Shown here one piece after another: positions 8,469 through 36,414 of a stretch of 36,414 nt of DNA (the stretch's first letter is position 1; each line of letters opens with the position of its first letter). The stretch is from Gammaproteobacteria bacterium. GTDB taxonomy: Bacteria; Pseudomonadota; Gammaproteobacteria; Steroidobacterales; Steroidobacteraceae. A program made the position numbers and the translations under genes. The stretch spans positions 1 to 36,414 of the forward strand of contig JASHPX010000371.1 in the NCBI GenBank assembly GCA_030037905.1, in the 5' to 3' direction. Below the pieces are notes generated by a model. The model saw nothing but the letters and a program-made list of their open reading frames with translations. It was not told where the DNA came from and made no database searches.

Positions 8469-8476
8469 GACACCCC

Positions 8477-9998: not shown

Positions 9999-11219
9999 TC
10001 ACACCGTCCGCGTGGCTTCGGCCGGGGGTACGGAAGCGGCGCGCAACGCCGGCCGCAGTGCTGCGAGCTGCCCCAGAACGAGAATAATCGCCACGCCGAC
10101 CAGCAGATACACGACCGGCAGGCGAGCCATGGCGAGCTTTTCGACCATCCACAGATTGGCGCCTAGCGCCAGCGCCACGCCCAGGAGCGCACCTGCAGCG
10201 CTGATGAGCAGCGTCTCGGTCTGGAAGTGGCGCATGATCATCACGCGCGTGGCACCCAATGCGCGGCGGATACCGATCTGCCGACGCCGCTGCGCGACCC
10301 AGTGGCTCGCCAGTGCGACGATACCGCAGGCCGTGACCGTGAGCAGCATCGCGCACACCAGCGTCAGCACCACGGCGAGTCCGCGCTGGCCCCGATAGGC
10401 GGCACGGCGGGCAGCGGTCAGCGCCTGGACTTTCTCGATGATGCGCCCGCGGCTGATGGCAAGCAGCGCCGCCGGTGCGGCCTTCATCGCGCCTGCGATC
10501 GCCCCCGGACGCACGCGTACCACGTAGAAATTGGATGGGCCTAATAACCGGTAGGGCAGCAGTGCCGCGTTATCGATGAGCGCCGGTGGCGCCGTGGGCC
10601 ACGGAACCTGCAATCGATCGACCACCCCGATGATCGGCGCCGTCTGCGAGGTCGGCATGATGGTCACCACGCGGCCGAGCACGTCGCCCCCGGGGGACAG
10701 CTCGTCGGCAAGCGCTCGGGTGACGATCACACCGCGCAGGGGCTTGCTGGACATGCCGGTGAAATTCTCGATCTCGCTGGGATCGAAGTTCCGGCCGGCC
10801 ACGAGGCGCAGCCCGAGAGTACGCAGGGTGTGCTCATCGCCGAAATACGCCGCCGCCTGGGTCAGTGGGCGGTGCGCATCCGGATGCAGCGTAAACATGT
10901 ATCCCCAGCCGCTGTTCTCCAGCGGATAACTGTTGGTGACGTAGGCGTCGATCACGCCCGGCAGCGAACGCAGGGCCTCGACGTCGGCCTGCGCCAGCGA
11001 GCGCACCTGAGTACCGGTGAGGGTCCAGTCGTTGGAAACGACGAAAATATCCGCCTCATCGACGCCACTGGGGCGGGCCATCAGCGCCAGCTGGTGCTGC
11101 ACGATGAACAGCGCGTTGCCCAGAATCGCCAGGGTGATCGCCATCTGGAGTGCGATCAACCCCGCGCCGATGCGGTTGCGGCGCAGGGCGGAGAGGATCG
11201 GAGGCAGATCCAGGAGCAT
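9999..11219 (-). CDS. FtsX/MacB-type ABC permease, B-type (B2)
   Basis: MLLDLPPILSALRRNRIGAGLIALQMAITLAILGNALFIVQHQLALMARPSGVDEADIF... Confidence 0.9.
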   Translation of the reverse strand: MLLDLPPILSALRRNRIGAGLIALQMAITLAILGNALFIVQHQLALMARPSGVDEADIFVVSNDWTLTGTQVRSLAQADVEALRSLPGVIDAYVTNSYPLENSGWGYMFTLHPDAHRPLTQAAAYFGDEHTLRTLGLRLVAGRNFDPSEIENFTGMSSKPLRGVIVTRALADELSPGGDVLGRVVTIMPTSQTAPIIGVVDRLQVPWPTAPPALIDNAALLPYRLLGPSNFYVVRVRPGAIAGAMKAAPAALLAISRGRIIEKVQALTAARRAAYRGQRGLAVVLTLVCAMLLTVTACGIVALASHWVAQRRRQIGIRRALGATRVMIMRHFQTETLLISAAGALLGVALALGANLWMVEKLAMARLPVVYLLVGVAIILVLGQLAALRPALRAASVPPAEATRTV

Positions 11220-11223
11220 GTTC

Positions 11224-12555
11224 TCACGGTGCCTTGAGATATTGGACCGGTGGTACCCGCGCCGCGCGCCACGTGGGATACAGGCCCGCCAGCAATGTCG
11301 CGCCGACCGCCAGCGCGATGGCGATGGCCACGTCGGCGCCATCGAGCCGCGTCAGGGCGGTGGAAGTCTCGGGCAGCAGCCCCGTGCTGCTCGCAAGACC
11401 CAGCTTGGTGAGCGTCAACCCGAGCAGGCCGCCGCCTAGCCCGATCATCGCCGCCTCCATCAGGCACTGGGCGAACAGCGCGCCGCGGGCGGCGCCCAAG
11501 GCACGCCTGACACCGAGGCTGCCGGAGCGGCCGAGAAACTTCACCAGCAGCAGCCCCATGGCGTTGAGCAGGCAGACCGCGAGGAAGCCGAACGACACGG
11601 CCACCAACAGCCGCACGTCCCCGTTCACGACGTGGTGATAGGTGAGCCACTGCGGCACGTCTCGCAGGGCAATACGGGACGGCCACGTGAAGCGGCCGGA
11701 CTGACGCTGAGCAGCGGTGTAATTCAGCAGAAACTGCCGGTAGTGGCGCACGTCAGAGCGTGTCGGCAGCTCCACCCAGAACTGAATCCACACGCATTCG
11801 GTGTGCAGCAACGCCTGCAGTCCCGAGCCGATCACATTGCGCCCGCAGGTTACCCTGACGCCGACGTGTGCGGCCTGATAATCCATGCTATTGGTGAACG
11901 GCACGAAGGCCTGCTCTGAATCGCCGAAAGCGTCGAATCCCAGGTCGTAAAAGCGCGGCGTGGCCGCCCAGTCGGCGATCACGCCGGCGACGGTATAGTC
12001 TTCATCACCCAGCCGCAGCGTTTTGCCGAGACTATTGATTCCGCCGAACAGCCGATCATTGAGCGCACGCGTGATCACGACGCGCGGCGCATGCGCGGCG
12101 TCGTCAGCGGCGCTCCAGGGCCCGCCGTAACGAAACGGCACGTCGAACATCGCGAAGAAGTCGGCGTACGTTGCACGCACCGGGATCTCGAACGCTGCCT
12201 GGCGCGGATCGGGTGGGATCAGCGAGAGCTGCAGCTCGTACATGGCCGCCTGGCGCTTTGCGGCATGTGCACGCATCAGCGCCGTCGCGTCCATGTAGGT
12301 CAGCGCATCAGGCAGGCGATCATCCGTCCGCGCAGCCCCGGGACCCGAGCCATTCACCGGCCCCCAGTTATCGATCTGTGGAGCGAACAGCTGTGTCGAC
12401 TTCTGCGGTATCGGGTCCCCCGACATGGCACGCAGAATCGTCAGCATCGTCATCGAGGTGCCGATGCCAACGCCGATCGCGATGATCACGAGCGCGGTCA
12501 GGATCGGATTGCGGCGCAGACCGCGTAGTGCGAGGCTCAGGTAGTAGCTGAACAT
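11224..12555 (-). CDS. FtsX/MacB-type ABC permease, A-type (A2)
   Basis: MFSYYLSLALRGLRRNPILTALVIIAIGVGIGTSMTMLTILRAMSGDPIPQKSTQLFAPQIDNWGP... Confidence 0.9.
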   Translation of the reverse strand: MFSYYLSLALRGLRRNPILTALVIIAIGVGIGTSMTMLTILRAMSGDPIPQKSTQLFAPQIDNWGPVNGSGPGAARTDDRLPDALTYMDATALMRAHAAKRQAAMYELQLSLIPPDPRQAAFEIPVRATYADFFAMFDVPFRYGGPWSAADDAAHAPRVVITRALNDRLFGGINSLGKTLRLGDEDYTVAGVIADWAATPRFYDLGFDAFGDSEQAFVPFTNSMDYQAAHVGVRVTCGRNVIGSGLQALLHTECVWIQFWVELPTRSDVRHYRQFLLNYTAAQRQSGRFTWPSRIALRDVPQWLTYHHVVNGDVRLLVAVSFGFLAVCLLNAMGLLLVKFLGRSGSLGVRRALGAARGALFAQCLMEAAMIGLGGGLLGLTLTKLGLASSTGLLPETSTALTRLDGADVAIAIALAVGATLLAGLYPTWRAARVPPVQYLKAP

Positions 12556-12570: not shown

Positions 12571-13794
12571 TCAGCCCGCTCGCGCCGCCACCGCCGGTGG
12601 CACCGCCGCCGCGCGCAACGCCGGCCAGAGCGCTGCGAGCTGGCCGAGCGCCAGCACGGCCGCGGTGCCGGCTGCGAGATAGCCTGGCGGCAGGCGCAGC
12701 ATCGAGAAGCGCGCGACGAGCCACAGATTCCCCGCCTCCGCCAGAGCGACTCCGGCCGCGATGCCGGCCGCCGTGATCAACAGGTTCTCGGTCTGGAAGT
12801 AGCGCACGATCGCCGGCCGCGTTGCCCCGAGCGCCCGGCGGATGCCGATCTGTCGCCGCCGCTGCGATACCCGGTAGCTCGTGAGCCCGACGATGCCCCA
12901 GGCCGTGACGGCCAGCAGGGCCGCGCACGCCAGCGAAAGAATCACGGCAACGCTGCTATCGATGTGATAAACCCCGCGGCGCACATCCGCGAGCGTCTCC
13001 ATCCCGGAGACGGCCCGTGCGCGGTCGATGCGGAATAGCGCGCGCTGCGCGCTGGTCATGACGGTGGCAACGTGGCCGGGCTGGGCGCGCACCAGGTAGT
13101 CGGGTTCGGAGCCGGCACGATACGGAACCAGCACTGCGTTGTCTGCGGCCCGCGCCAGGGCCGCCATCGTGACCGCCTGCAGCTGCTGGACCACCCCGAT
13201 GATGGGAGCGGAGATCGATGTGGGCTCGAGCACCGCCACCCGTCCAACCACGTTGCCGTGCGGCGCGAGCCCGCGCGCCACGGCCTGCGTGACGATGATC
13301 CCGTCCAGCCTATTGGAGCGACCGCTGGCAAGGATGCTTTCATCCACGATCTCCTCGGGCTGAAAGTTGCGCCCCGCGACGAGCTTCAGCCCGAGCGTAC
13401 GCAACGCGTGATCATCGGCGTAGTAGGCTCCGGCAAACACGCCGCGCCGCGGCTCGTCCGGGTGCAGCGTGACACCGAGTCCCTGAATCGGGCCGCCCAA
13501 GGGATACGTCTGGGACACCGTGGCATCCACGACTCCGGGCAATGCGCGCAGGGCGGTCAGATCCGCCTGCACGCGCGCCGCCGCGTCCGTCGGGTGACCG
13601 GCCCAGCGGTTCTCGATCACCAATACATCCGCCTCGTCGCTGACCCCGCTCGGCCGCTCACCGAGCGAGAGGCGCTGCTCGACGATGAACAGCGCGTTGC
13701 AGAGAATGGCGAGCGTCACTGCGATCTGCAGGCTGACGAGGACCGCTCCGGCCTTCTGACGCCACATCGACGCGAGAATGGGTCGCAGCTGCAT
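12571..13794 (-). CDS. FtsX/MacB-type ABC permease, B-type (B3)
   Basis: MQLRPILASMWRQKAGAVLVSLQIAVTLAILCNALFIVEQRLSLGERPSGVSDEADVL... Confidence 0.9.
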   Translation of the reverse strand: MQLRPILASMWRQKAGAVLVSLQIAVTLAILCNALFIVEQRLSLGERPSGVSDEADVLVIENRWAGHPTDAAARVQADLTALRALPGVVDATVSQTYPLGGPIQGLGVTLHPDEPRRGVFAGAYYADDHALRTLGLKLVAGRNFQPEEIVDESILASGRSNRLDGIIVTQAVARGLAPHGNVVGRVAVLEPTSISAPIIGVVQQLQAVTMAALARAADNAVLVPYRAGSEPDYLVRAQPGHVATVMTSAQRALFRIDRARAVSGMETLADVRRGVYHIDSSVAVILSLACAALLAVTAWGIVGLTSYRVSQRRRQIGIRRALGATRPAIVRYFQTENLLITAAGIAAGVALAEAGNLWLVARFSMLRLPPGYLAAGTAAVLALGQLAALWPALRAAAVPPAVAARAG

Positions 13795-13821: not shown

Positions 13822-15162
13822 CTATTGCGCCTTGAGCTGCCAGGCCGGCTGGACCCGGGTGGCTCGCCACGCCGGGTACAGCCCGGCGATCAGTGCCGCC
13901 GCAATCGCCAGCGCCACGGCGATCAGCACATCGGCGCCGTCGAGCCGGCCCGGGCTCGATAGGTCACGGCCGAGCAGCAGGCCGCCGGCCGCGAGACCGA
14001 GCGTGGTCAGCGCCAGACCGATCAATCCGCCGGCAAGCCCAACGATGCTCGCCTCCGCCAGGCACTGCGCGAACACCGCGCGGCGATTGGCCCCGAGCAC
14101 GCGGCGCACACTCAGGCTCGCAGAACGCGCCAGGAACTTCGCCAGCATCAAGCCCATGGCGTTCAGCAGGCAGACCAGCAAAAAGCCAAACGAAACCTCC
14201 ACCAGGATGTTCACGCTGTCCGGTACCACGTGGTTGTAGGCGAGCCATTGGTGCACATCCCTGAGTGCGATCCGCGGCAGCCAATCGAAGCGTCCGTCGC
14301 GCTGCTGCGCCAGGACGTAACCGCGCAGAAACGAATGGTAGCGGCGCACCGCGGCGGCACCGGGCAGCTCGGCCCAGTACTGGATCCAGATGCACTCCGA
14401 ATGCAGCAAGCCGCTCCAACCGGCTCCCGCTCCCTTGCCGCGCGTGCTGCAGCCCAAGGACTCGGTAGGTCCCAGCTGCTGATCGACGGCGTCGTTGAAT
14501 GGCAGCAGCAGTTGCTCGGCGCCACCGAAGCCGAAGGTGCCGCCCGCTGTATTCAAGTCGTAGAACCGGGGCATCGGAGCCCAGCGCCGCAGCACTCCGA
14601 CGACCCGATAGGGCCTCTCGCCGAGCACCAGGGTTCTGCCCACGCTATCGCCGCCGCCGAACAGCCGGTCGTCGAGAGCCCGGCTGATGACGACCACGGC
14701 CGCATGCGCCTCGTCCTCGGCCGAGTTCCACGGCCCGCCGTATTCGAACGGTACGTCGAACATCGGGAAGAAATCGGCAAACGTGGCGCGCGCACCGGCC
14801 TGAAAGGGATAACGCTGCGCATCCGGAGGCGTGACCACGAGTTGCGTTTCGTACATCGCCGCCTGTCGCGGGGCCGCGTGGGCACGCATGAACCCCATGG
14901 CGTCCTGGTACGTCAGGTTGGTCGGCAGACCATCGCTGGACACTGGCCGGGCCTGCGTATTCCCCAGCCCCCAGTTATCGATCTGCGGCACGAACAGCTG
15001 CGAAGACTTGCGCGGGATCGGGTCGCCGGACGCCGCCCGCAGGATCGCCAGCATGGTCATCGAGGCGCCGATCCCTACACCGATGGTGGCGATCATCAGT
15101 GCCGTCAGCACGGCGTTGCGCTCGAGGCTGCGCAGCGCGAGGCTGAGGTAGTAGCGGAACAT
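13822..15162 (-). CDS. FtsX/MacB-type ABC permease, A-type (A3)
   Basis: [66 protein letters not shown]... Confidence 0.9.
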   Translation of the reverse strand: MFRYYLSLALRSLERNAVLTALMIATIGVGIGASMTMLAILRAASGDPIPRKSSQLFVPQIDNWGLGNTQARPVSSDGLPTNLTYQDAMGFMRAHAAPRQAAMYETQLVVTPPDAQRYPFQAGARATFADFFPMFDVPFEYGGPWNSAEDEAHAAVVVISRALDDRLFGGGDSVGRTLVLGERPYRVVGVLRRWAPMPRFYDLNTAGGTFGFGGAEQLLLPFNDAVDQQLGPTESLGCSTRGKGAGAGWSGLLHSECIWIQYWAELPGAAAVRRYHSFLRGYVLAQQRDGRFDWLPRIALRDVHQWLAYNHVVPDSVNILVEVSFGFLLVCLLNAMGLMLAKFLARSASLSVRRVLGANRRAVFAQCLAEASIVGLAGGLIGLALTTLGLAAGGLLLGRDLSSPGRLDGADVLIAVALAIAAALIAGLYPAWRATRVQPAWQLKAQ

Positions 15163-15196: not shown

Positions 15197-15334
15197 TCAC
15201 ATCGCCCGCGTGGCTTCCACCGGTGGCACCGAGGCGGCGCGCAGCGCAGGCCAGAGCACGGTGAGCTGGCCGAGCGCGAGCACGATCACGGCTCCGGCGA
15301 CGAGGTAACAGTCGTCCAGCCGCGGCATATCGAA
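15197..15334 (-). pseudogene. C-terminal remnant of a B-type permease (B4')
   Basis: FDMPRLDDCYLVAGAVIVLALGQLTVLWPALRAASVPPVEATRAM matches the final ~45 aa of the B paralogues; homology stops upstream. Confidence 0.85.
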
Positions 15335-15464: not shown

Positions 15465-15480
15465 AGCAAGCTGTGTGCCA
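15465..15480 (-). promoter_or_regulatory. Sigma-54 (RpoN) promoter
   Basis: Minus strand TGGCACACAGCTTGCT: close to TGGCACG-N4-TTGCW with exact GG-N10-GC spacing; predicted start near 15454, firing toward A3/B3/A2/B2. Confidence 0.7.
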
Positions 15481-15541
15481 ATTCAAAGTGGCGTGTATAC
15501 CTTTGACTCTATGGTCGGAAATGACAAGTCATGCCCGGAAT

Positions 15542-15572
15542 GTTGTCCGCGGACACTGCGGACAACTGTCCG
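15542..15572. promoter_or_regulatory. Clustered TGTCCG/CGGACA half-sites; candidate enhancer site for the NtrC-type regulator
   Basis: gtTGTCCGCGGACActgCGGACAacTGTCCG: perfect 12-bp palindrome TGTCCGCGGACA (15544-15555) followed by CGGACA-AC-TGTCCG; centre about 100 bp upstream of the sigma-54 promoter. Confidence 0.55.
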
Positions 15573-15621: not shown

Positions 15622-16911
15622 TCAGGGCCTCACCACGCTCGCCGGAAACGACCAGAGGACAGAGAGCGGCAGGGCGAGCCGGGCCGGCCCGAAAGAAAGG
15701 GTCTGCTCCCCGAGATAAATCACGAAGGCTGTTCCTCGGTAGGACTTGCCGGGACCGTCCGCGAGAAACCAGTCCATGTGCCGGAAGTCCTCGGAGCCGA
15801 CGGTTGTCGATGCCTTCACTTCAAACAAAGCAAGCAAGCGACCGGGCGCCTGAGCCACGATGTCCACTTCCCGGGCGTCGTGGCGCCAGTGATAGAGTTG
15901 CCAGCGCCGCTTCAGGAGCGGCAGCGATTTCTCGAGCTCGCAAAAGACGAAGGTCTCCAAGATGTGACCCAGCGCCGCCGGATCGGCTCGCAGGCCGAAA
16001 CTGTGCGAGTCCTCACCGCGCAGCGCGGTGGCGCATCCGGTGTCCATGAAATGCAGTTTGGGCGATCTCACTTCCTTGCGCGCGCCGGACGCGGTCCACG
16101 CGCCGAGACGGTGCACGATGCCGAGACGGGATAGCGCGTCGAGATAGGCATTGATGGTCTCTTGGCGTGCGCCGAGAGCGGCGCACAGCTTGGCGACGTT
16201 GAGCTCCTCGGCTGTGCGATGGGCGAGCTGCTGGATCAGCCGCCGCAGGGTATCGGGCTTGCGAATGGGCGCGACCGGCGCGACATCCCGCTCCACGATG
16301 CTGTCGACATAGGACTCATAGCGGGCCATCCGATCCCGATCCTCGAGTCCGCGGATCTCGGCAAATCCGCCCCGAACCAGCAGATCGATCGCCTCTTGGC
16401 GTGCGAAGCGTCTGGAAACCGGCACATCGGCCGGGGAGACGGCCGCCTCCGCGGCAAGGTCGAGCAACCGGCAGGGACCGGCGCGCCGGATCTCGGCGGC
16501 GCTCAGAGGCCACAGCCACAAAGTGATGACCCGGCCGGCCAGGGAATCGAATGCCTTGGGCAAAGTGAAGATATCCGAGGAGCCGGTGAGAACGAACTGA
16601 CTCGCGCGGCGCTCCCGGTCCACGATGCGCTTGAGGGCAAGCGTGATCCGGGGCAACCGCTGAACCTCATCGACGACGATCGGCAAACCCGGTTTTGCAC
16701 TGGCCGATAGGATGCTCAATTGGCCATAGGGATCGAGCCCCAATGAGGCCAAGAGCGCTTCGTCGTCGAGGTCCAGGAATTCGGCTGCCTGCAGCATGTC
16801 CCTCACCAATGTCGTCTTGCCGCTCTGGCGAGGTCCCACGACATTGACGACGCGGCTCGTGCACAAGGCCGCTGTGAGCCTCTCGGTAAGGTGCCGGGGG
16901 ATCAGCGTCAT
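15622..16911 (-). CDS. AAA ATPase, AAA_14/DUF4143 type
   Basis: VVNVVGPRQSGKTTLVRDML, LPIVVDEVQRLP, VLTGSSDIFTL, YHWRHDAREVDIVAQAPGRLLALFEVKAS. Alternative start at 16932. Confidence 0.92.
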   Translation of the reverse strand: MTLIPRHLTERLTAALCTSRVVNVVGPRQSGKTTLVRDMLQAAEFLDLDDEALLASLGLDPYGQLSILSASAKPGLPIVVDEVQRLPRITLALKRIVDRERRASQFVLTGSSDIFTLPKAFDSLAGRVITLWLWPLSAAEIRRAGPCRLLDLAAEAAVSPADVPVSRRFARQEAIDLLVRGGFAEIRGLEDRDRMARYESYVDSIVERDVAPVAPIRKPDTLRRLIQQLAHRTAEELNVAKLCAALGARQETINAYLDALSRLGIVHRLGAWTASGARKEVRSPKLHFMDTGCATALRGEDSHSFGLRADPAALGHILETFVFCELEKSLPLLKRRWQLYHWRHDAREVDIVAQAPGRLLALFEVKASTTVGSEDFRHMDWFLADGPGKSYRGTAFVIYLGEQTLSFGPARLALPLSVLWSFPASVVRP

Positions 16912-16931
16912 GCCGGCATTGTGACAAAACA

Positions 16932-16987
16932 TCTATTAGTAATAAAGAAAAACTTCTATTACGTGACTAGAAAAACTTCTATTACGT
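16932..16987. repeat. Iteron-like AT-rich repeats upstream of the DUF4143-type ATPase
   Basis: TCTATTA at 16932, 16955 and 16978 (exact 23-bp period); 19-bp direct repeat AGAAAAACTTCTATTACGT at 16946-16964 and 16969-16987; TATTA-G-TAATA dyad at 16934-16944. Confidence 0.75.
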
Positions 16988-17028: not shown

Positions 17029-18261
17029 TCACACCGTTCGTGTCGCCACCACCGGCGGTACCGACGCGGCGCGCAGCGCAGGACACAGCACCGCCAGCTG
17101 CCCGAGCGCGAGCACCGCGGCGAGACCCACGAGCAGGTAGCTCACCGGCAGGCGCGACATCTGCAGGGTCTCGACCATCCAGAGATTGGCCGCGAGACCC
17201 AGCCCGACACCGGCAACGCCGCCCGAGGCCGCAATCACGAGGTTCTCGATCTGAAAGTACTGTACGACCACCGGCCGCGTCGCCCCGAGCGCCCGGCGGA
17301 TGCCGATCTGCCGCCGCCGCTGCGACACCCAGTAGCTCGTCAGCCCGACGATGCCGAAGGCGAGCACCACCAGCAGCACCGCGCACACGGCGCCCAGGAT
17401 CACCGCGAGACCCCGGTCATCGTGATACACCGCGGCGCGCGCCGCGCTGAAGGGCTGCACCTTTTCGATCAGGCGGTTGGGGTCGATCTGCAGCAGCCGC
17501 TGCGGCGCCGCTCTCATTACGGCGGCGAGCTGCCCCGGTTTTGCCCGCACCACGTAGTAGGCCTCGTCGGTCACGTCGCGGTACGGCATCAGCACCGAGT
17601 TGTCGACGTTGGCGCCGCCGAGATCGCCGCCGCCCGAGACCCATGGGCCCTGCAATCGCTCGACCACGCCGATGACCGGCACCGTGCGCGTCCAGCCCAT
17701 GATGTAGAGGCCTCGGCCGACGGCCGGGCCATGCGGAAACAGCTTGCGCGCCAGCGCCTGGGTGATGATCAGTCCATCGGGCACCGGCTGGCTGTCGTCG
17801 GTGCTATTCAGGATGTCCGTGGCGCTGAAGTTACGGCCGGCGGTCAGACGCAGACCCAGCGTCTGCAGCGTTTGCTCATCGCCGTCATACACCGCAGTGT
17901 CGGCCGCCGCCGGCTGCGTGCCGTCAACGGGCAGCCGGATCCACACGGCGCTGCCACCACCCTTGTCGCTCAACGGATAGGTGTTGGTGACGTAGGTGCC
18001 GGCAACGCCGGCCATGGCGCGTAGCGCCGCCAGGTCGTTGATGACTCCCGGCGTATGATCCCCGGCGCCGATCCAATCATTGGCGATCGCGAACAGAGTC
18101 GCCTCGTCGGTACCACTGGGACGCCCCAGCTGCGCCAATCGCTGCTGGATGATGAACAGAGCATTGCACAGGATCGCGAGCGTCACGGCGATCTGCAGGC
18201 CGATCAGCGCTGCACCGACTTTGTTACGACGCATGGCCGAGAGGATGGGATGCACGGACAT
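17029..18261 (-). CDS. FtsX/MacB-type ABC permease, B-type (B5)
   Basis: MSVHPILSAMRRNKVGAALIGLQIAVTLAILCNALFIIQQRLAQLGRPSGTDEATLF... Confidence 0.9.
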   Translation of the reverse strand: MSVHPILSAMRRNKVGAALIGLQIAVTLAILCNALFIIQQRLAQLGRPSGTDEATLFAIANDWIGAGDHTPGVINDLAALRAMAGVAGTYVTNTYPLSDKGGGSAVWIRLPVDGTQPAAADTAVYDGDEQTLQTLGLRLTAGRNFSATDILNSTDDSQPVPDGLIITQALARKLFPHGPAVGRGLYIMGWTRTVPVIGVVERLQGPWVSGGGDLGGANVDNSVLMPYRDVTDEAYYVVRAKPGQLAAVMRAAPQRLLQIDPNRLIEKVQPFSAARAAVYHDDRGLAVILGAVCAVLLVVLAFGIVGLTSYWVSQRRRQIGIRRALGATRPVVVQYFQIENLVIAASGGVAGVGLGLAANLWMVETLQMSRLPVSYLLVGLAAVLALGQLAVLCPALRAASVPPVVATRTV

Positions 18262-18271
18262 CGACCTGGCC

Positions 18272-19594
18272 TCACTGCGCCTCGAGTTGCCAGGCGGGCT
18301 GCACGCGCGTGGCACGCCAGGTCGGGTACAGGCCCGCCAGTATCGTCGCGACAATCGCAACCGCGACCGTAATCAACATGTCAGCGGCGTCCAAATGCGA
18401 CAGCACACGCATGTCGCTGCCGAGCAGCGCCCGCAGGGCCGCGAGGCCCAGAGCCGTCAATACGAGCCCCAGCAGCGCCCCGACGACACCGATGACGAGA
18501 GCCTCGATCAGGCACTGCGCGAACACCACCGCGCGGCCGGCCCCGAGCGCACGCCGCACGCCGATGTCAGCGGCGCGACGCATGATCCGCGCGAGCATCA
18601 GCCCCATGGCATTGAGCAGACAGACCAGCAGAAAGCTGAAGGACACCAGCAACAGGATGCGCGATTCGTTCGACACGACGCGCCGATAGACGAGCCACTG
18701 GCGCACGTTACGCAGCTGCACGTGTGGCGGCCAGTGGAAACGGCCGATGCGCTGCTGTTCGGCCGCGTAATCGGTCAGATACGCACGGTAGCGCGCCACA
18801 TCGGTGCTTGTCGGCAGCTCGACCCAGAATTACAGCCACGTACAATCCGAGCGCAGCAGCCCGTCCCAGCCGGGCGGCGTAGGAGCCACGCAGGGACCGC
18901 CCTCGCTGGAGTGCTTGCGCAGGTCGATTGCGGTTGTGAAAGGCAGGAACACATCTTCAGGCGTGCCGCCGAAGGCGTCCTGCGGATCGTAGTAGCGCGG
19001 CACCGGATCCCAGCGGGCGAGAACCCCGACAATGCGGAATACGTCAGCGTCGAGCCGCAGCACCCGGCCGACGCTGTTGGCGCCGCCGAACAGCCGATCA
19101 TTGAGCTCGCGGCTGATCACGACGACGGGTACGTGTCCTTGATCGTCGGCAGAGCTCCACGGGCCACCGTAGCGGAACGGCACGTCGAACATGCGGAAAA
19201 AATCCGCGTACGCTGCGCGCGCACCAGCCCGGAAGGGCGGCAGCTGCGACTGCGACTGCGACTGCGGCGGCCACACCGCAAATTGCGTCTTGTACAGCAC
19301 CGTCTGTCGCTCGCCGGCGTGCGCGCGCATGAGCGCCGTGGCGTCGATGTAGCCGAGCTGATCGCTCAGATGGTCCGGATTGGGTCCGTTCGCGCCCAGG
19401 CCCCAGGCATCGATCTGCGGGGCGAAGAGCTGCGTGGCGTGGTCGGCGATCGGATCGGCGGCCATGGCGCGAAACACCGTCAACGTGGTCATCGCGGCGC
19501 CGATGCCCACGCCGATCGTGAGGACCATCAGCGCCGTGAGCGCGGGGTTGCGGCGCAGGCTGCGCAGGGCGAGGGTGAGGTAGTAGCCGAGCAC
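18272..19594 (-). pseudogene. FtsX/MacB-type ABC permease, A-type (A5), interrupted by an in-frame TAA
   Basis: [25 protein letters not shown]...GLLRSDCTWL-stop-FWVELPTSTDVARYRAYLTDYAAEQQ...; both halves in the same frame, TAA at 18832-18830 (minus). Confidence 0.88.
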
Positions 19595-19606
19595 GGCCCT
19601 CGCCAA

Positions 19607-19822
19607 TCAGTCTTTTTCGTGTCCAGCCGGTCCGGGCGGTTCCGGGAATGCCCTCAGCGCATCCTTCACCACCGACAGCAGTGCGGGCGCATGTCTGACC
19701 GCGACGTCGTACACCTTACGGTGATCGAGCTCCGCATAGCCATGCACGAGTATGTTGCGAAAACCGATGATCTCGCGTGACTCGATGTCTTCGAGATAGA
19801 CTCCAGGGTCACGCTGCGGCAT
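19607..19822 (-). CDS. HepT-like HEPN protein, internally shortened
   Basis: MPQRDPGVYLEDIESREIIGFRNILVHGYAELDHRKVYDVAVRHAPALLSVVKDALRAF: N-terminus joined to the RX4HXY (RNILVHGY) region, central helices missing. Confidence 0.75.
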   Translation of the reverse strand: MPQRDPGVYLEDIESREIIGFRNILVHGYAELDHRKVYDVAVRHAPALLSVVKDALRAFPEPPGPAGHEKD

Positions 19823-20117
19823 AGACAGGCGATTTGCTGTGTTCGATGTAGTGGCGCAGCCGGCGATTTCGAATGGCATGCAGCTCGACCAGGTCCACGG
19901 AACGCCCAAAGAGAGCCTGCAACGATTCTTTCAGATCCAGAAAATTGCTAAAGCTGCCAGCTGCATGCGCCTCGAATTCGATCAGGACATCTATGTCGCT
20001 GCGGTCCGGATCGAAGTCGTCACGAAGAATCGAACCGAACACGTCGAGCTTGCGCACGCCATGACGTCGGCACAGTCCGACAATGGCGTCACGGTTGATT
20101 TCAATGAGGGGATGCAT
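19809..20117 (-). CDS. MntA-like nucleotidyltransferase antitoxin
   Basis: MHPLIEINRDAIVGLCRRHGVRKLDVFGSILRDDFDPDRSDIDVLIEFE: minimal nucleotidyltransferase GS...DxD motif; overlaps the HepT-like ORF by 14 bp. Confidence 0.88.
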   Translation of the reverse strand: MHPLIEINRDAIVGLCRRHGVRKLDVFGSILRDDFDPDRSDIDVLIEFEAHAAGSFSNFLDLKESLQALFGRSVDLVELHAIRNRRLRHYIEHSKSPVYAAA

Positions 20118-20327
20118 GGTCAAATCCCGACCGCTAGGCTGCCACGGAGCCACCAAAAAGACGAGGATAAAAATGAGGTCCGCCGTTCAAGCCGGCCTTA
20201 CAGATTGCCAGCACGCGGCTACGCCTGCCCGCGTGCAGCTGCATGCCGATCTCGTCCAGAAAGTGAGCGAATTTTAACATAGAACGCGATAACTTCTGTG
20301 CGGTCGGCGCGCGGGTCCGCCCGAGTC

Positions 20328-21587
20328 TCATAGGGTCCGCGCGGCTTCCGCCGGCGGCACCGACGTGGCGCGCAGCGCCGGCCATAGCGTCGCGACCTGC
20401 CCGAGCAGCAGCATGACGATGGCTCCGAGCACGGCATAGCGGTAATCCAGGCGGGCCATCTGGAAGCGGTCGACCATCCAGAAATTCGCCGCGATCGCGA
20501 GTCCAACGCCTGCCAGTACCCCTGCGCCCGCGATCAATAGATTCTCTGTCTGAAAATGTCGCACGATGGCTGCGTGGGTTGCACCCAGCGCGCGCCGGAT
20601 GCCGATATGCCGGCGACGCTGATTGACCCAGCAGCTCGTCAGCCCAACGATGCCCCACCCCGTCATCGCCAGCAGGACCGCGCTCACCCCCGTCAGCATG
20701 ATCACCTGGCCGCGGTCACCGCGATACAGGCGCTGCCGGGCGGCGGACAAGGACTCGACGTCGCGCAGCACCCGGGCTCGACTGACGGCATAGAGCCTGG
20801 CCGTCGCGACCTTCATCGCTGGTCCCACCTGCGCGGCGGACGCCACGCGCACCACGTAGTAGGCGTTCGCAGCCGCGTCACGGTACGGCAGCAGCATAGA
20901 ACTGTATGCCGACATGTGGAACGGGCGGAACAGGGGCGGCGGGTCCGCCGTCGCGACCTGCAGCGCTTTGACGACCCCCACGATCGGCACCGACGCGCCG
21001 GGCAGCGTAGGGAACCCGACGAGGGTTGCCACGCGCCCGAGGACATTGCCGTCCGGAGCCAGTTGCCGTGCAAGCTGTTGCGTGACGATGACGCCGTCCG
21101 GAGGCGGCACTGGCGGCCCGGAGCCGTAATAGGACTGCACGTCATCGCCGCCGAAGTTGCGGCCGGCGATCAGCCGCAGTCCCAGTGTGCGCAGCGTCTG
21201 GCTGTCTGCCAGATAGACGCCGACATTGATCTCGGAACCCTTGACACCAGGATGGAGCGTAATCGCGAAGGTGTCGCCGAGGTCGCTGAGCGGGTAAGAG
21301 TTGGTGGCGTAGACATCGACGACCCCCGGCACTGAGCGCAGTGCCGCCAGATCAGTCTGCACGCGTGCGCCGATGTCGGCCGGCTTGCCAATCCATTGAT
21401 TCTGGATCGCAAACAAACGCGCTTCGTCGACCCCGGTTGACCGCGCCATCGATACCAGTCGCTCGTGAATGATGAACAGCGCGTTGCTGAGGATGGCCAG
21501 CGTCAAGGCGATCTGTATCGCGATCAGCACCGGGCCCAGTGCGTTGCGGCGCATCGCTGCCAGGATCGGATGTATGGGCATCCGCAC
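20328..21587 (-). CDS. FtsX/MacB-type ABC permease, B-type (B6)
   Basis: MRMPIHPILAAMRRNALGPVLIAIQIALTLAILSNALFIIHERLVSMARSTGVDEARLFAIQNQW... Confidence 0.9.
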   Translation of the reverse strand: MRMPIHPILAAMRRNALGPVLIAIQIALTLAILSNALFIIHERLVSMARSTGVDEARLFAIQNQWIGKPADIGARVQTDLAALRSVPGVVDVYATNSYPLSDLGDTFAITLHPGVKGSEINVGVYLADSQTLRTLGLRLIAGRNFGGDDVQSYYGSGPPVPPPDGVIVTQQLARQLAPDGNVLGRVATLVGFPTLPGASVPIVGVVKALQVATADPPPLFRPFHMSAYSSMLLPYRDAAANAYYVVRVASAAQVGPAMKVATARLYAVSRARVLRDVESLSAARQRLYRGDRGQVIMLTGVSAVLLAMTGWGIVGLTSCWVNQRRRHIGIRRALGATHAAIVRHFQTENLLIAGAGVLAGVGLAIAANFWMVDRFQMARLDYRYAVLGAIVMLLLGQVATLWPALRATSVPPAEAARTL

Positions 21588-22910
21588 TTACTGCACCTTG
21601 AGCTGGAACGCCGGCTGCACACGGCTCATACGCCAGGTGGGATAGAGCCCTGCGAGCAGCGTCGCGAGAATCGACAGTGCGACGGCGATCGCCGCATCGG
21701 CGCCATCGAAGCGAACCAGCTCGAGTAGGTTGACCGGTAGCAGCAGGCGGCTCACCCGCAGCCCCAGGCCCGAGAGCAGCAGCCCGAGCCCGGCGCCGAG
21801 CACACCGATCATGCCGACTTCGATCAAGCTCTGCAGGAAGATGGCGCTTCGGGTTGCACCGGTCGCGCGGCGGACGCTGACATCGAGAGCGCGCGGCAGG
21901 AACCTCGCCAGAATGATGCCCATGGCATTGACCAGACAGGCGACGAGCAGCGCGAAGGCGACGATCACGGCGATACGCACCTGGGCCGGCACCACATTCT
22001 GGGCACGCAGCCACTGGTTGACATCGCGCAGCCGGACGCGCGTGGGCCATTGAAAACGGCCGGTGAGACGTTGCTCGGTGGCATACGCCGTCAGGAGCTG
22101 TGTATAGCGCTGCACGGCGGCTGCGGTCGGCAGCTCTACCCAGAGCTGTACCCAGGTGCACTCCGAGGTCTGCAGCTCTTGCCACAGCTTGAAAGGAGCT
22201 GAATGGATGCTCCGGCAGGCGAGCATCGAATTGCTCGTCAGTTGCAGGTCCACGGCGCGGGTGAAGGGCATGAACAGCGCGTCAGCACTGGTGAGTGCCC
22301 CCGGGCTGACGTCATAGAAACGCGGCACCGGCTGCCAAGTGTCGGTGACCCCCACGATGCGATAGTCCTGCGTGTCGACGCGCAGCGTTCGGCCGACGCT
22401 GTCTGCTCCACCGAACAGACGGTCGTTGAGTGCTCGCGACAGGACAACGACCGCGGCATGGGCCGCATCGTCCTGCCTGCCCCACGGCGCACCGTACCGG
22501 AACGGCACGTCGAACATCGGAAAGAAATCCGCACCCGTCGCGCGCGCGACGACCTGCAACGGGTAGATTTGCGGATCGGGCGGCGTCACCGCCACCGCGG
22601 TTGGATACATCACCGCCTGTGCCGCGGCCGCGTGCAGGCTCATCAGCGCCATGGCATCCCGGTAGGTCAAACCCACCGGTATTCGATCGGCGGTCATGGG
22701 AGGAAGACGGCAATCCCCGCAGTTGTCGATCTGCGGCGCGAACAGCTCGGCGGACTTCCCAGGAATCGGGTTGCCCGCCGCGGTCCGGAAGATGGCGAGC
22801 GTGGTCATCGATATGCCGATGCCCACCCCGATCGCCACGATCATCAATGCCGTGAGCGCGGGGCTGCGCCGCAGGCTGCACAGCGCGAGGGTCAGGTAGT
22901 AGCCGAACAT
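21588..22910 (-). CDS. FtsX/MacB-type ABC permease, A-type (A6)
   Basis: MFGYYLTLALCSLRRSPALTALMIVAIGVGIGISMTTLAIFRTAAGNPIPGKSAELFAPQIDNCGDC... Confidence 0.9.
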   Translation of the reverse strand: MFGYYLTLALCSLRRSPALTALMIVAIGVGIGISMTTLAIFRTAAGNPIPGKSAELFAPQIDNCGDCRLPPMTADRIPVGLTYRDAMALMSLHAAAAQAVMYPTAVAVTPPDPQIYPLQVVARATGADFFPMFDVPFRYGAPWGRQDDAAHAAVVVLSRALNDRLFGGADSVGRTLRVDTQDYRIVGVTDTWQPVPRFYDVSPGALTSADALFMPFTRAVDLQLTSNSMLACRSIHSAPFKLWQELQTSECTWVQLWVELPTAAAVQRYTQLLTAYATEQRLTGRFQWPTRVRLRDVNQWLRAQNVVPAQVRIAVIVAFALLVACLVNAMGIILARFLPRALDVSVRRATGATRSAIFLQSLIEVGMIGVLGAGLGLLLSGLGLRVSRLLLPVNLLELVRFDGADAAIAVALSILATLLAGLYPTWRMSRVQPAFQLKVQ

Positions 22911-23041
22911 CAGTTCGCCCCCTTCACCGCAACCCGCCCTGCCGTCCGTAGCCGCGAGCGCCGCAGGCGGTGTCCAGCCGCCGTACGAGCTCAACTCCAG
23001 CCGGCGAGGCAGGATTGCGGGTACCGAAATAATTCTCTAGC

Positions 23042-23061
23042 ATACACATTCGGAGGTGTAT
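23042..23061. promoter_or_regulatory. Inverted repeat over the vapB ribosome-binding region
   Basis: ATACAC-N8-GTGTAT; the GGAGG Shine-Dalgarno at 23052-23056 abuts the right arm. Confidence 0.5.
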
Positions 23062-23063
23062 AC

Positions 23064-23279
23064 ATGCGTACCAACATCGTGCTGGACGATCGCCTCGTCA
23101 AGGAGGCGATGCGGCTTTCCAGGGTTAAAACCAAGCGCGAAGCCGTGGACTTGGCGTTGCGCGATTACGTCGCTAGAGGCAAGCAGCGCGACATCCTGCG
23201 CCTGATCGATGCTCAGTTGATCGCTCCCGATTACGACGTTCGTGCCGTGCGGCGGCACATGACCCGTGATCCTGGTTGA
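23064..23279 (+). CDS. vapB: VapB-family antitoxin
   Basis: MRTNIVLDDRLVKEAMRLSRVKTKREAVDLALRDYVARGKQRDILRL. Confidence 0.9.
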   Translation: MRTNIVLDDRLVKEAMRLSRVKTKREAVDLALRDYVARGKQRDILRLIDAQLIAPDYDVRAVRRHMTRDPG

Positions 23280-23667
23280 CTCGGCCGTCTGGATCGATCT
23301 ACTTCGCAACCGGGACAGCACAGCGGTGGCTCGACTGCGGGCGCTGCTGGATCTGGGCGAAGCGGCGGCGACGTCGGTCATCGTCCAAGAGGTTCTGCAA
23401 GGGGCGGCGAGTGCAGCGGCGTTCGCCGAGCTGCGCCGGTATTTCACGGCAATACCGCTGCTTGGTACCGCCGAAACCCTCGAGCTGCACATTGCGGCGG
23501 CGGACCTGTATGCGCGGGCCCGCTGGCGTGCCATCACGCCGCGCAGTCCGAACGACTGTCTGATCGCTGCCGCGGCCATCCGGGAGGATGTCCCGCTCCT
23601 GCATGATGACCGGGACTTCGAGCAACTGGCCACGGTGGAGCCTCGATTGAAGCTACTGCGGCGGTAG
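23266..23667 (+). CDS. vapC: VapC-family PIN-domain toxin
   Basis: GTG start; MILVDSAVWIDLLRNRDS...TSVIVQEVLQG...SPNDCLIAAAAIREDVPLLHDDRDFEQLA; overlaps vapB. Confidence 0.92.
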   Translation: MILVDSAVWIDLLRNRDSTAVARLRALLDLGEAAATSVIVQEVLQGAASAAAFAELRRYFTAIPLLGTAETLELHIAAADLYARARWRAITPRSPNDCLIAAAAIREDVPLLHDDRDFEQLATVEPRLKLLRR

Positions 23668-23697
23668 GGCATGAGCGCGGAGGCGCCGCGATCGACG

Positions 23698-23816
23698 ATG
23701 GCCAGCGTGGTCATCGAAATGCCGATGCCCACTCCGATCGCGGCGATCATCAGCGGCGTGAGCACGACATTGCGCCGCAGGCTGCGTAGCGCCAGGTTGA
23801 GGTAATAGCCGAACAT
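23698..23816 (-). pseudogene. N-terminal remnant of an A-type permease (A6')
   Basis: [40 protein letters not shown], then homology to the A family ends. Confidence 0.88.
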
Positions 23817-23842
23817 CAGCTCGCCCCCTTTTACCGTGGCCC

Positions 23843-25069
23843 TCACACCGCACGCGTGGCTTCCGCCGGCGGCACCGCGGCAGCACGCAGCGCCGGCAGG
23901 AGCGTCGCGACCTGCCCCAGTCCGACGATGACGATCGCCCCGCCGATTAGATAGTCCGGCGGCAACCTGGCCACCGCGAAATGACCGATCATCCACAGGT
24001 TCGCGGCGACGGCGAGCGCGACACCGACCACGACACCGCTGGCGGCGATGACAAAGTTCTCGGTCTGAAAGTGGCGCACGATACCCGGCCGCGTCGCACC
24101 GAGCGCGCGTCGGATGCCGATCTGATGCCGGCGCTGCTCGACCCAGTAGCTCGTCAGGCCGACGATGCCCAGCGCTGTGACCGCAGCGAGCACGGCGCAG
24201 ATCTCGGTCAGCATGTGTGCCAGACTGCTGTCACCGTGGTAGATCTGCCGGCGTGCCTCGCGCAGGGATTGCACTTGCTGGATGACCCGTGCCCGGCTGA
24301 GCCGCAGCAGCGCCGCCGGCGCGGCCCTCATCGTGGCATCGAGCCGTCCGGGAGCGCTACGGACGATGTAGAACAGTGACGCATTCACTTCGCGGCACGG
24401 CAGCAGGATCGAGTTCTCCACCGCGGCGCCGCTACCGTACTCATCCACCGCCGGCGCCTGCAGCCGCCGGATGATGCCGATGATCGGTGCGCTCACTCGC
24501 GCGCCGCCCAACAGGGTTGCGACCCGGCCGAGAACCCGGCCGCCGGGAGACAGCTCCTCGGCCAGCGCCCGCGTCACCAGGATCCCGCTCGGCGGCCCGA
24601 CAGTCGCCAGATTGCAATCGGATATCTCTGTAGCGGTGAAGTTCCGGCCAGCCGAAAGCCTCGCGCCGAGGGTGTGCAAAGCCTGGGCGTCGCCGAAGTA
24701 GGCCGCGGCGAGCTGTACGCTCGCCGGTCGATCCGGATGCAGGGTGATTCCGATGTTGAAGTCGTTATCGCTGAGAGGCTGAGTATTGGACGCGAATGCG
24801 TCCACGACGCCCAGGACAGTGCGCAGCGCGGCGACGTCGGCGCTTATCCGCGCCGCCAGATCGCGCGGCTGGCCGACCCATTGGTTTTCGATCGCAAAGA
24901 TGTCCGCCTCATCGACGCCGCTCGGACGATTGCTCAGCGCGAGCCGCTGCCGCACCACGAACAGCGCATTGCAAAGGATGGCAAGCGTCACGGCCATCTG
25001 CAGTGCAATCAGCGCCGCAGCGACCTTGTTACGGCGCATTGCGGAGAGGATCGGGTGTAGCTGCAGCAT
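23843..25069 (-). CDS. FtsX/MacB-type ABC permease, B-type (B7)
   Basis: MLQLHPILSAMRRNKVAAALIALQMAVTLAILCNALFVVRQRLALSNRPSGVDEADIFAIENQW... Confidence 0.9.
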   Translation of the reverse strand: MLQLHPILSAMRRNKVAAALIALQMAVTLAILCNALFVVRQRLALSNRPSGVDEADIFAIENQWVGQPRDLAARISADVAALRTVLGVVDAFASNTQPLSDNDFNIGITLHPDRPASVQLAAAYFGDAQALHTLGARLSAGRNFTATEISDCNLATVGPPSGILVTRALAEELSPGGRVLGRVATLLGGARVSAPIIGIIRRLQAPAVDEYGSGAAVENSILLPCREVNASLFYIVRSAPGRLDATMRAAPAALLRLSRARVIQQVQSLREARRQIYHGDSSLAHMLTEICAVLAAVTALGIVGLTSYWVEQRRHQIGIRRALGATRPGIVRHFQTENFVIAASGVVVGVALAVAANLWMIGHFAVARLPPDYLIGGAIVIVGLGQVATLLPALRAAAVPPAEATRAV

Positions 25070-25077
25070 CGCCGCCC

Positions 25078-26397
25078 CTACCGAATCTTGAGCCGCCAGG
25101 CCGGCTGCACCCGGGCCGCCCGCCACGTGGGATACAGCCCGGCGAGCACGGTCGCGCTGACACCCAGTATCACGGCGATCGTTGCATCCGCGCCGTCGAG
25201 CCGCGTCAAAACGGATGCGGCGGCCGGAAACAGCCCCCGGGCGTCGGTCAGTCCGAGCACCGCAAGTCCCAGCCCGGCGACTCCGCCCGCGACGCCAATG
25301 ACTCCGGCCTCCACCAAGGACTGGGCAAAAATGGCGCCGCGGGCGGCGCCCAGGGCACGTCGAATCGCGATCTGCACGGACCGTCGCAGGAATTTCGCCA
25401 GCATCAGCCCCAGCGCGTTCAGCAGGCAGACGACCAGGAAACCGAAGGACACCAGCACCAGCAGCCGCACGTCGTCGTTGACGACGTGGTTGTAGACGAG
25501 CCATTGCCGTACGTCGCGCAGCGCCACCCGCGCCGGCCAATTGAAGCGGCCGCTCTGCCGTTGTGCGGCCGCGTAGTTCTGCAGGAACTGCCGGTACCCG
25601 CGCACCGCCGCCGTGGTGGGCAGCTCCGCCCAAAACTCTACCCAGGTGCATTCCGACTGCAGCACATTGGGTCCGGTACTCTTGAAGCAGCTCAAATAGC
25701 CCTGTGGAAGCTGCCGCTGCACCGCGAGCGTGAACGGCATGAAGATCTGCTCGGGATCCGAGAAGGAACCGTCCCCGGTCAGATCGTAGAAGCGCGGCAC
25801 CGGGTGCCAGTCGTCGATCACACCGGCGACCCGGTAGTCATCGGTGCCAAGCATGAGGGTCCGGCCCACGCTGTTGCGGCCGCCGAACAGCCGATCGTTG
25901 AGCTTGCGCGACAGTACGACCACGGGTGCATGAGCATCATCGTCGGCCGCGCTCCACGGGCCCCCGTATTCGAACGGCACCGCGAACATCGGAAAGAAAT
26001 CGGCATAGGTCGCGCGCACCGGGACCCGCAGGGGCAATTGCTGCGGGTCGGGCGGCGTGACGGTGATCGTCGTCGCGTACATCGCTGCCTGCCGGCGGGC
26101 CACATGCGCACGCATCAGCGCCATGGCGTCGATGTAGGTCAAGGTCAGCGGAAGTTGATCGTTGGTGAAATGCCTCCTGAACGGCGCCGGAACGCCGGCG
26201 GGACCGAGGTTATCGATCTGTGGTGTGAACAGCTGTACCGACTTGCGCGGAATCGGATCGCCGGCCATGACGCGAAAGATCGCCAGCGCCGTCATCGATG
26301 CACCGATGCCCACCGCGACGACGACGATCATCAGCGTACTCAGGATGCTATTGTGCCGCAGGCTGCGCAGCGCCAGGTTGAGGTGGTAGCCGAACAT
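25078..26397 (-). CDS. FtsX/MacB-type ABC permease, A-type (A7)
   Basis: [66 protein letters not shown]... Confidence 0.9.
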   Translation of the reverse strand: MFGYHLNLALRSLRHNSILSTLMIVVVAVGIGASMTALAIFRVMAGDPIPRKSVQLFTPQIDNLGPAGVPAPFRRHFTNDQLPLTLTYIDAMALMRAHVARRQAAMYATTITVTPPDPQQLPLRVPVRATYADFFPMFAVPFEYGGPWSAADDDAHAPVVVLSRKLNDRLFGGRNSVGRTLMLGTDDYRVAGVIDDWHPVPRFYDLTGDGSFSDPEQIFMPFTLAVQRQLPQGYLSCFKSTGPNVLQSECTWVEFWAELPTTAAVRGYRQFLQNYAAAQRQSGRFNWPARVALRDVRQWLVYNHVVNDDVRLLVLVSFGFLVVCLLNALGLMLAKFLRRSVQIAIRRALGAARGAIFAQSLVEAGVIGVAGGVAGLGLAVLGLTDARGLFPAAASVLTRLDGADATIAVILGVSATVLAGLYPTWRAARVQPAWRLKIR

Positions 26398-26422
26398 CAG
26401 CTCGTCCCCTACACCGCGGCCC

Positions 26423-27655
26423 TCAGACCGTCCGCGTGGCTTCGGCCGGCGGCACCGACGCGGCGCGCAACGCGGGCCATAGTACGGCGAGCTGGCTCAG
26501 CCCGAGCACCATCAGTGCGCCGGCGGCGAGGAACCCGACACCGATGCGAGTCATCTGTGCGTTTGCCGCGAGCCATAGATTCAGCGCGAGACCCATCGCA
26601 ATGCCGAGCCCGGCGCCGCCTCCGGCGATCAGCAAATTCTCCTGTTGAAAATAACGCAGGATGTCGATCCGCCGCGCTCCCAGTGCTCGGCGAATGCCAA
26701 TGTGTCCACGCCGTTGAGCCACCCAATAGGCGGTCATTCCGACGATCCCGCAGGCGGTGACGGCCAGCAGCAGCGCCGAGAGGGCCGTGAGCGTCAGGGC
26801 CAGTGCGCGGTCGGAGCGATAGATCTGCGCGCGTGCCTCGGAGATCGTCTGCACGTCGTCTATGACGCGCGCCGGACTGAGCGCGAACAGCGTGCGCGGC
26901 GCGGCACGCATGACGGCGTTGACCCGTCCCGGCCGCGTGCGCACGACGTAGACGAGCCGCGTGGCGACGTATCGGTACGGCCAGAACATGGAGAGCTGAT
27001 CGGGCATACCGGTCTCGACATTTTCGCCCCACGAGCTCTGCGCGCGCTGCACGATACCGATGACGCGCGTTGGGGCGGGCCGGTCCATGTTCAGATAGAC
27101 GGTCCTGCCGAGCACCTCGCCGCCGGGGAACAGTGTCTGTGCCAGAGCCTGCGTCACGACCACGACCGGCGGCGGCGAGCTTCCAAGATCGTCGAGGCGG
27201 CGCGGACTGACTTCATCGGCACTGAACCAGCGCCCGGCGATCAGCCGCGCGCCGAAGGCGGCCAGCGCCTGCGTCCCGCCCATGTACACCGCAACGTGCT
27301 GCGCGCTGGGCTGCTTTTGCAGCGGGTCCAGCGCGACGTCCCACGCCAGCCCATAGCCTCGCAGCGGAAAGCTGTTGAGCGCGGAGACGGCGACGACGTC
27401 AGGCAGGGCGCGCAGCGCCGCCACATCTGCGCGTATGCGCGCGCCCAGGTCGTCGTTCGAGTCAATCCATCGGTTCTGCAGCGTGAACACGTCCGGCTCG
27501 TCCAGGCCGCTCGGCTGAGCCATCTGCTGCAGGCGCTGCTGAATAATCGATAGCGAGTTGCACACGATCGCCACCGTCAGGGCGATCTGCAACACGATGA
27601 ACAACACCCCGGCCTTGTTGCGCCGGAGGACAGAAAGAGCGATCGGGAGCTGCAC
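26423..27655 (-). CDS. FtsX/MacB-type ABC permease, B-type (B8)
   Basis: MQLPIALSVLRRNKAGVLFIVLQIALTVAIVCNSLSIIQQRLQQMAQPSGLDEPDVFTLQNRW... Confidence 0.9.
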   Translation of the reverse strand: MQLPIALSVLRRNKAGVLFIVLQIALTVAIVCNSLSIIQQRLQQMAQPSGLDEPDVFTLQNRWIDSNDDLGARIRADVAALRALPDVVAVSALNSFPLRGYGLAWDVALDPLQKQPSAQHVAVYMGGTQALAAFGARLIAGRWFSADEVSPRRLDDLGSSPPPVVVVTQALAQTLFPGGEVLGRTVYLNMDRPAPTRVIGIVQRAQSSWGENVETGMPDQLSMFWPYRYVATRLVYVVRTRPGRVNAVMRAAPRTLFALSPARVIDDVQTISEARAQIYRSDRALALTLTALSALLLAVTACGIVGMTAYWVAQRRGHIGIRRALGARRIDILRYFQQENLLIAGGGAGLGIAMGLALNLWLAANAQMTRIGVGFLAAGALMVLGLSQLAVLWPALRAASVPPAEATRTV

Positions 27656-27664
27656 GGCCGGTCC

Positions 27665-28969: not shown

Positions 28970-28985
28970 GCTGGTGTCGCCTCTG

Positions 28986-30215: not shown

Positions 30216-30223
30216 GCGCCCTC

Positions 30224-31561: not shown

Positions 31562-31577
31562 GCCGTTCGCCGCTACC

Positions 31578-32810: not shown

Positions 32811-32826
32811 GGTATCTCCGCCCGCC

Positions 32827-34152: not shown

Positions 34153-34183
34153 CATCAGCATCAGCCCCTAAGTCGTCCCGCCG

Positions 34184-34972
34184 CTACACCTTCGCCGGCG
34201 TCGTCCCCGGCGCCCCCCCCTGCGCACCTCGCCCCGCCCCGCCCGTCGCCGCGGCGGCCCCGCCCTCGCCCTCTCCCCGCTCCTCCCGCACCAACCTTGG
34301 ATCGGCGGTCAGCTCCACGATCGTCCCATCGATGATGTGCACCTGGCGCTGCGCGCGCGCGGCGAGGTCCGGGTCATGCGTGACCATCACGATGGTCGCG
34401 CCGCCACGGTGCAGCTCTTCGAGGAGCTCCATGACCCCGCGCGCCATGTGCGTGTCGAGGTTGCCGGTGGGCTCATCCGCGAGCAGCAGCCGCGGCTCTC
34501 CGACCAGCGCACGCGCGATCGCCACGCGCTGCTGCTGGCCACCGGACATCTCGGAAGGGTAGTGACGCATGCGCGAGGTGAGTCCGACGCGCTCGAGCAC
34601 GGCGTGAATGCGGCGCTTGCGCTCCGCCCCCGGCATGCCGCGGTAGCGCAGCGGCACGTCGATATTGTCGAACACGTTCAGGTCTGGAATCAGATTGAAC
34701 GACTGGAACACGAAGCCGATCTTTTCGTTGCGCAGCCGCGAGCGCTGCCGATCGTTCAACCCGCGCGTATCCACGCCGTCCAGCCAGTACTCTCCGCCGC
34801 TGAACTCCTCCAGCAACCCCGCGATCGTCAGGAACGTCGTCTTGCCGGAGCCCGAGGGCCCGGTCACGGCGACGAACTCTCCCTCGCGCACGTTGATGGT
34901 GAAATCGCGCAGGGCGTAGGTTTCCACCACTTCGGTGCGATAGATCTTCGACAGATGTTTCATGTCCAGCAT
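34184..34972 (-). CDS. ABC transporter ATP-binding protein, MacB/LolD type (ATPase 2), with low-complexity C-terminal tail
   Basis: [41 protein letters not shown]; tail EERGEGEGGAAAATGGAGRGAQGGAPGTTPAKV. Confidence 0.97.
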   Translation of the reverse strand: MLDMKHLSKIYRTEVVETYALRDFTINVREGEFVAVTGPSGSGKTTFLTIAGLLEEFSGGEYWLDGVDTRGLNDRQRSRLRNEKIGFVFQSFNLIPDLNVFDNIDVPLRYRGMPGAERKRRIHAVLERVGLTSRMRHYPSEMSGGQQQRVAIARALVGEPRLLLADEPTGNLDTHMARGVMELLEELHRGGATIVMVTHDPDLAARAQRQVHIIDGTIVELTADPRLVREERGEGEGGAAAATGGAGRGAQGGAPGTTPAKV

Positions 34973-36400: not shown

Positions 36401-36414
36401 ACCGGTACCGGCCC

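Follow-up and report, generated by a model that had tools for sequence, protein, structure and literature searches.

The window analysed here, 36,414 nucleotides of DNA from a member of the Steroidobacteraceae, is the entire contig C135 of a 4.5 Mb assembly in 403 contigs, and nearly all of it is a single minus-strand locus comprising an HlyD adaptor, an ABC ATPase, alternating A- and B-type permeases, a second ATPase with the pair A1-B1, and a response regulator. The HlyD-type adaptor (35051..36412) is truncated at the contig end. It is followed by the ABC ATPase (34184..34972), whose best NCBIfam model is DarD with a score under that model's cut-off, and by an upstream permease array running from A9-B9 to A4-B4 (17029..34161) that features gaps and decayed copies. 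The row is interrupted by an AAA_14/DUF4143 ATPase gene (15622..16932, minus strand), a DUF234 ATPase gene (8180-9982, plus strand) and toxin-antitoxin genes. Directly downstream of the DUF4143 gene lies the element of interest at 15465-15572, followed by a 44-codon 3' remnant of a B-type permease (15200..15334, minus strand) with 51-75% identity to the B proteins by tblastn and up to 88% over 76 bp by blastn. This remnant occupies the leader ahead of permease A3 (MacB_PCD plus FtsX; 13822..15162), the first intact gene behind the element, which is followed on the same strand by B3 (FtsX plus MacB_PCD; 12571..13794), A2 (11224..12555) and B2 (9999..11342, with a start codon probably nearer 11225). 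All four are intact, and the element faces them, as the sequence-only reading had stated. The response regulator gene (3..1277, minus strand) lies at the far end of the contig.

Decayed copies and toxin-antitoxin genes are spread along the array. A4 (18275-19594) carries one in-frame TAA, indicative of either a decayed copy or an assembly error, and the start fragment of an A gene is found at 23831-23650. Toxin-antitoxin genes fill array gaps at 4866-5833, 6044-6469, 19607-20156 and 22203-23667; their types are BrnT with a BrnA-like ORF, a PIN toxin, a nucleotidyltransferase/HepT pair, and VapB with PIN. A MazE/MazF-like pair likewise follows a stand-alone A-B pair in a related genome (L114), and on contig C39 of the present assembly a DUF4143-like stretch (L156:7945-8358) adjoins an A-B pair.

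The element consists of two parts. On the minus strand, 15480-15465 reads TGGCACACAGCTTGCT, with TGGCAC at -24 and TTGCT at -12, zero mismatches to TGGCACRN4TTGCW and the GG-N10-GC spacing that defines a sigma-54 promoter; the earlier call of a sigma-54 box was thus correct to the letter. It is the only perfect match in a pattern scan of the window, and it would place a transcription start at about 15453. Sigma-54 promoters remain silent until an upstream-bound AAA+ activator contacts the polymerase, and a predicted activator site with four TGTCCG half-sites is present at 15544..15572 (minus strand). The plus strand reads TGTCCGCGGACA-ctg-CGGACA-ac-TGTCCG and the minus strand, accordingly, CGGACA-gt-TGTCCG-cag-TGTCCGCGGACA. 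These four half-sites had been described as two dyads, but they are better read as one perfect 12-bp inverted repeat with zero spacer (15544-15555) plus tandem half-sites. Similarly, the stated distance of about 100 bp holds only when measured from the inferred start; between the -24 element and the nearest half-site there are 63 bp, a distance within the tens to hundreds of bp expected of an upstream activator site and kept in relatives. The intervening 63-bp spacer (15481..15543, minus strand) contains a weak IHF-like match, AGTCAAAGGTATA, with two mismatches and not significant when taken alone.

In 300 dinucleotide shuffles of the window, perfect boxes occurred at a mean of 0.023 per shuffle, and neither clusters of at least four half-sites nor the joint occurrence of box and cluster appeared. 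Across the 4.5 Mb assembly there are five TGGCACN5TTGCW sites and three places with an exact TGTCCGCGGACA, and an exact box coincides with an exact TGTCCGCGGACA only at 15465-15572. At the other exact inverted repeats (C17, C311), which are probably unrelated, there is no nearby sigma-54 box; the perfect boxes on C318, C72 and C329 are without a half-site pair or cluster. No sigma-70 alternative was found near the 15465-15572 promoter, and terminator-like matches near it are no more frequent than chance. A tblastn match that seemed to carry permease homology through the promoter (15565-15206) was rejected on inspection, with true identity confined to 15334-15200. The genome encodes RpoN (PF04552 on C281, E 1.2e-66).

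A second contig of the same assembly, C22 (L008), encodes TolC and the beginning of an HlyD, 87-91% identical to the HlyD of the window. The genome holds no close HlyD beyond those on C22 and C135, so the two contigs are probably opposite ends of a single operon, with the break at a glycine-rich repeat; the TolC partner and main promoter of the window operon would then probably reside on C22. Their 230-bp overlap is not identical, and two copies or strain variants are therefore possible. Upstream of this TolC gene is a perfect box (C22:1844-1829) with three half-sites, TGTCCG...TGTCCG...TGTCCGCGGACg, and a cluster-to-box spacer of 135 bp, longer than the 63 bp of the window.

To avoid circularity, loci in relatives were picked by protein similarity, to either the regulator or TolC, and not by motif. 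Of twenty further loci fetched with the regulator (57-63% identical), 16 have the operon start on the contig, and every one of these features three to five half-sites, a sigma-54 box and then the order HlyD-ATPase-A-B-regulator; the 182 kb of these loci contain no additional cluster of three or more half-sites. Selection on TolC (at least 48% identity) gave ten homologues, eight of which are preceded by the cluster, counting one locus (L135) whose site overlaps the aligned start, versus none of 13 outer-membrane paralogues at 31-37% identity. Two TolC homologues, L164 and L165, lack the module. Conservation at homologous transporter operons, the check proposed along with the sequence-only reading, is thereby borne out.

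The architecture of the module is also retained. Relatives share the layout of a zero-spacer inverted repeat plus tandem half-sites, and the cluster-to-box distance is mostly 60-78 bp (77 bp in L214). IHF-like matches in their spacers total 33 mismatches relative to 46.5 in shuffles, with none of 200 shuffles as good. A scan of 217 family genomes for TGTCCG-N50-80-TGGCACN5TTGC returned 28 sites, where the reversed control returned 7, and several of the 28 have tandem TGTCCGCGGACA dyads ahead of TolC-HlyD-ATPase-A-B-regulator operons; a strict pattern across 397 genomes of the order returned 6 sites, all within the family, against 0 for reversed controls. Since the module also heads homologous operons, the TolC-HlyD genes on C22 and lone permease units in two other genomes, 15465-15572 is very probably one copy of a conserved operator-promoter that normally heads TolC/HlyD/ABC-ATPase/FtsX-permease export operons.

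Within the family, the module is also encountered outside of transporter operons. In L115, L118 and L120, a dyad and perfect sigma-54 box directly precede genes for related small proteins (M-x-T-x-ISSKL...ALMMNSLIIGGV) that have one N-terminal membrane-like stretch and, where tested, no family match. In a genome of the same genus, a UrcA-family gene (TIGR04433; L122:3356-3724) follows TGTCCGCGGACA and a sigma-54 box.

The lone permease units bear on the proposal that the array contains separately inducible permease blocks. Genome G104 has, besides a full operon, a solitary A-B pair immediately following a module of its own (L114). An A gene in G006, from the same genus, likewise follows a module, whose box has two mismatches, on a contig that ends soon after A (L073); aligned with the window element, both show the same layout. 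That part of the proposal is supported, while its attribution to the same two-component system is less direct. No internal module was seen in the longer arrays L159 and L213, which shows that such arrays do not generally carry an internal copy. The A and B trees give matching groups (A3/A9 with B3/B9, and A5/A8 with B5/B8), which indicates that A/B pairs were duplicated as units; A3 is sister to A9, and A9-B9 is the first pair behind the main ATPase, while A7 and B7 group with L161 and L114.

The co-encoded regulator combines a receiver (PF00072) with a sigma-54 AAA domain (PF00158) and has GAFTGA in its translation, as previously noted, which places it among NtrC-type response regulators. Its C-terminal DNA-binding domain, a Fis-type HTH, is lost beyond the contig end; relatives feature a LSRQALYRRMEK-type recognition helix there, which is nearly invariant among regulators of relatives with the module and is of a common type. 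A histidine kinase gene adjoins the regulator in L113 and L121. The module is present in each of the six genomes whose regulator homologue is 68% or more identical, and the L164 operon has neither an adjoining regulator nor the module. For these reasons, together with the near-invariant helix, the co-encoded response regulator is the likeliest activator, and our best inference from sequence. Control by the same two-component system is a tentative reading, as some genomes with the module are without a close regulator homologue and the DNA-binding end of the window regulator is off the contig.

Several characterized systems resemble parts of this arrangement. In Enterobacteria, GlrR (QseF) binds TGTC-N10-GACA sites upstream of a sigma-54 promoter; the likeness extends to an NtrC-type response regulator and a TGTC/GACA inverted repeat, whereas the window has TGTCCG half-sites, with no spacer in the inverted repeat and further copies in tandem. 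The window regulator, which is without its C-terminus, scores 289.1 against the GlrR model (NF011695; cut-off 763) and 305.8 against the PrsR model (TIGR02915; cut-off 502.6); in this truncated form it falls below every curated equivalog cut-off among the models shown. PrsK/PrsR with RpoN controls PEP-CTERM genes (PMC1569441; PMC9850573) through modules of an activator motif, a spacer with a mean of 62.8 nt and a sigma-54 box (PMC1569441). Like the present system, it pairs an NtrC-type regulator with a kinase and uses a two-part, dispersed activator-motif/sigma-54 layout; its motif, however, ends in TTTACA rather than TGTCCG, and its targets are PEP-CTERM proteins. A 2025 survey reports that sigma-54 promoters are enriched for ABC-type antimicrobial-peptide permeases (FtsX-type/COG0577) in Gammaproteobacteria, Opitutia and Bacteroidia (PMC12316311); its prediction is at the COG level, and the keyword-matched passages mention neither an activator operator nor a cognate regulator, and no promoter inside an array.

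The transporter itself is likewise related to known families without falling neatly within one. A corresponds to the N-terminal half and B to the C-terminal half of the ADOP model (TIGR03434), as in a split ADOP-like pair, but these are two genes rather than one permease of ~800 aa, their scores of 134 and 151 lie well under the cut-off of 622, and the window ATPase is separate from the permease. As in MacAB-TolC, there are a TolC, an HlyD adaptor, an ATPase and an FtsX permease; adaptor and outer-membrane factor are encoded with the ATPase and permeases in L113, L159 and L161 (gene order TolC-HlyD-ATPase-A-B), and TolC-HlyD is found on C22. In contrast to MacAB-TolC, there is no fused ATPase-permease MacB, as ATPase and permeases are separate genes. 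In the darobactin exporter DarB-C-D, DarD is the best curated model for the window ATPase and DarC a weak match for the adaptor, all below cut-off. In the literature searched, neither the TGTCCG operator nor its position inside an array was encountered, and TGTCCGCGGACA appeared only in an unrelated human promoter paper. Overall, the combination of a cognate NtrC-type regulator and sigma-54 modules of this layout has a precedent in PEP-CTERM genes, and what is unusual here is the placement inside an array.

We consider it highly likely, from sequence comparison, that 15465-15572 holds a genuine sigma-54 promoter together with an upstream activator site, the two forming a copy of the control module of the export operon. 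A chance consensus match in a GC-rich genome is the least credible alternative, with a negligible probability: TGTCCG-type palindromes do occur 0-7 times per genome in relatives, but the absence of box-plus-cluster from shuffles and of reversed-pattern hits from the strict order-wide scan weighs against it, and conservation at homologous operons already refutes it. Many dimeric regulators typically recognise palindromes without a spacer, and the half-sites could accordingly bind a repressor or other regulator independently of sigma-54. Such a role is quite improbable in view of the near-constant distance to the sigma-54 box, a cluster of three to five half-sites outside the polymerase footprint, and the linkage to a GAFTGA-type regulator gene.

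Two other explanations accept the module as real and deserve more weight, though both are unlikely. The internal promoter could be a relic of rearrangement with no present role, such as a duplicated operon head that has lost TolC, HlyD and ATPase, since it adjoins the B-gene remnant and other decayed copies, including A4 and the fragments in other gaps; the sister relationship of A3 to A9 fits the same history. Against this, box, half-sites and spacing are all intact, as are A3, B3, A2 and B2, and permease units in other genomes retain their own module. Somewhat less probable still is that an NtrC-type activator other than the co-encoded regulator binds TGTCCG. Five genomes (G006, G011, G021, G110 and G114) possess the module without a regulator homologue at E<=1e-110, and the targets in the family extend to small membrane peptides and UrcA; yet these genomes are MAGs of 74-86% completeness, the module accompanies the regulator in the six close genomes and the 16 operons described above, and the L164 operon, with no adjoining regulator, is also without the module.

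Returning to a functional internal promoter under the co-encoded regulator, we infer transcription, looping, the activator and a benefit of the internal copy as follows. The kinase would sense a signal and phosphorylate the regulator, dimers of which would occupy the TGTCCG half-sites. The ~63 bp of DNA in between, which in many relatives contains an IHF-like site, would loop, and the AAA+ domain would open RNA polymerase-sigma-54 at 15480-15465, with transcription beginning near 15453 and producing A3-B3-A2-B2. The internal module could thereby keep these four genes expressible despite the DUF4143 gene and decayed permeases between them and the main promoter. As the module was copied into the middle of the array, this part of the row can probably be switched on separately by the same sensor-regulator pair.

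More speculatively, A/B pairs may be portable cassettes, each copied as a whole and capable of bringing along a TGTCCG/sigma-54 module of its own. If this rather doubtful scenario is true, one two-component system would deploy swappable permeases on a shared ATPase, adaptor and TolC, and the small membrane peptides that the module precedes at other loci of the family may serve as substrates or as signals. Finally, the predicted operator belongs to a family-wide, unstudied export operon, such that the regulon could be compiled computationally and a single binding assay would test the activator. A working internal promoter would show how extended rows of duplicated permeases remain expressed once they have been interrupted, and would provide a way into the questions of what they export and at what times.
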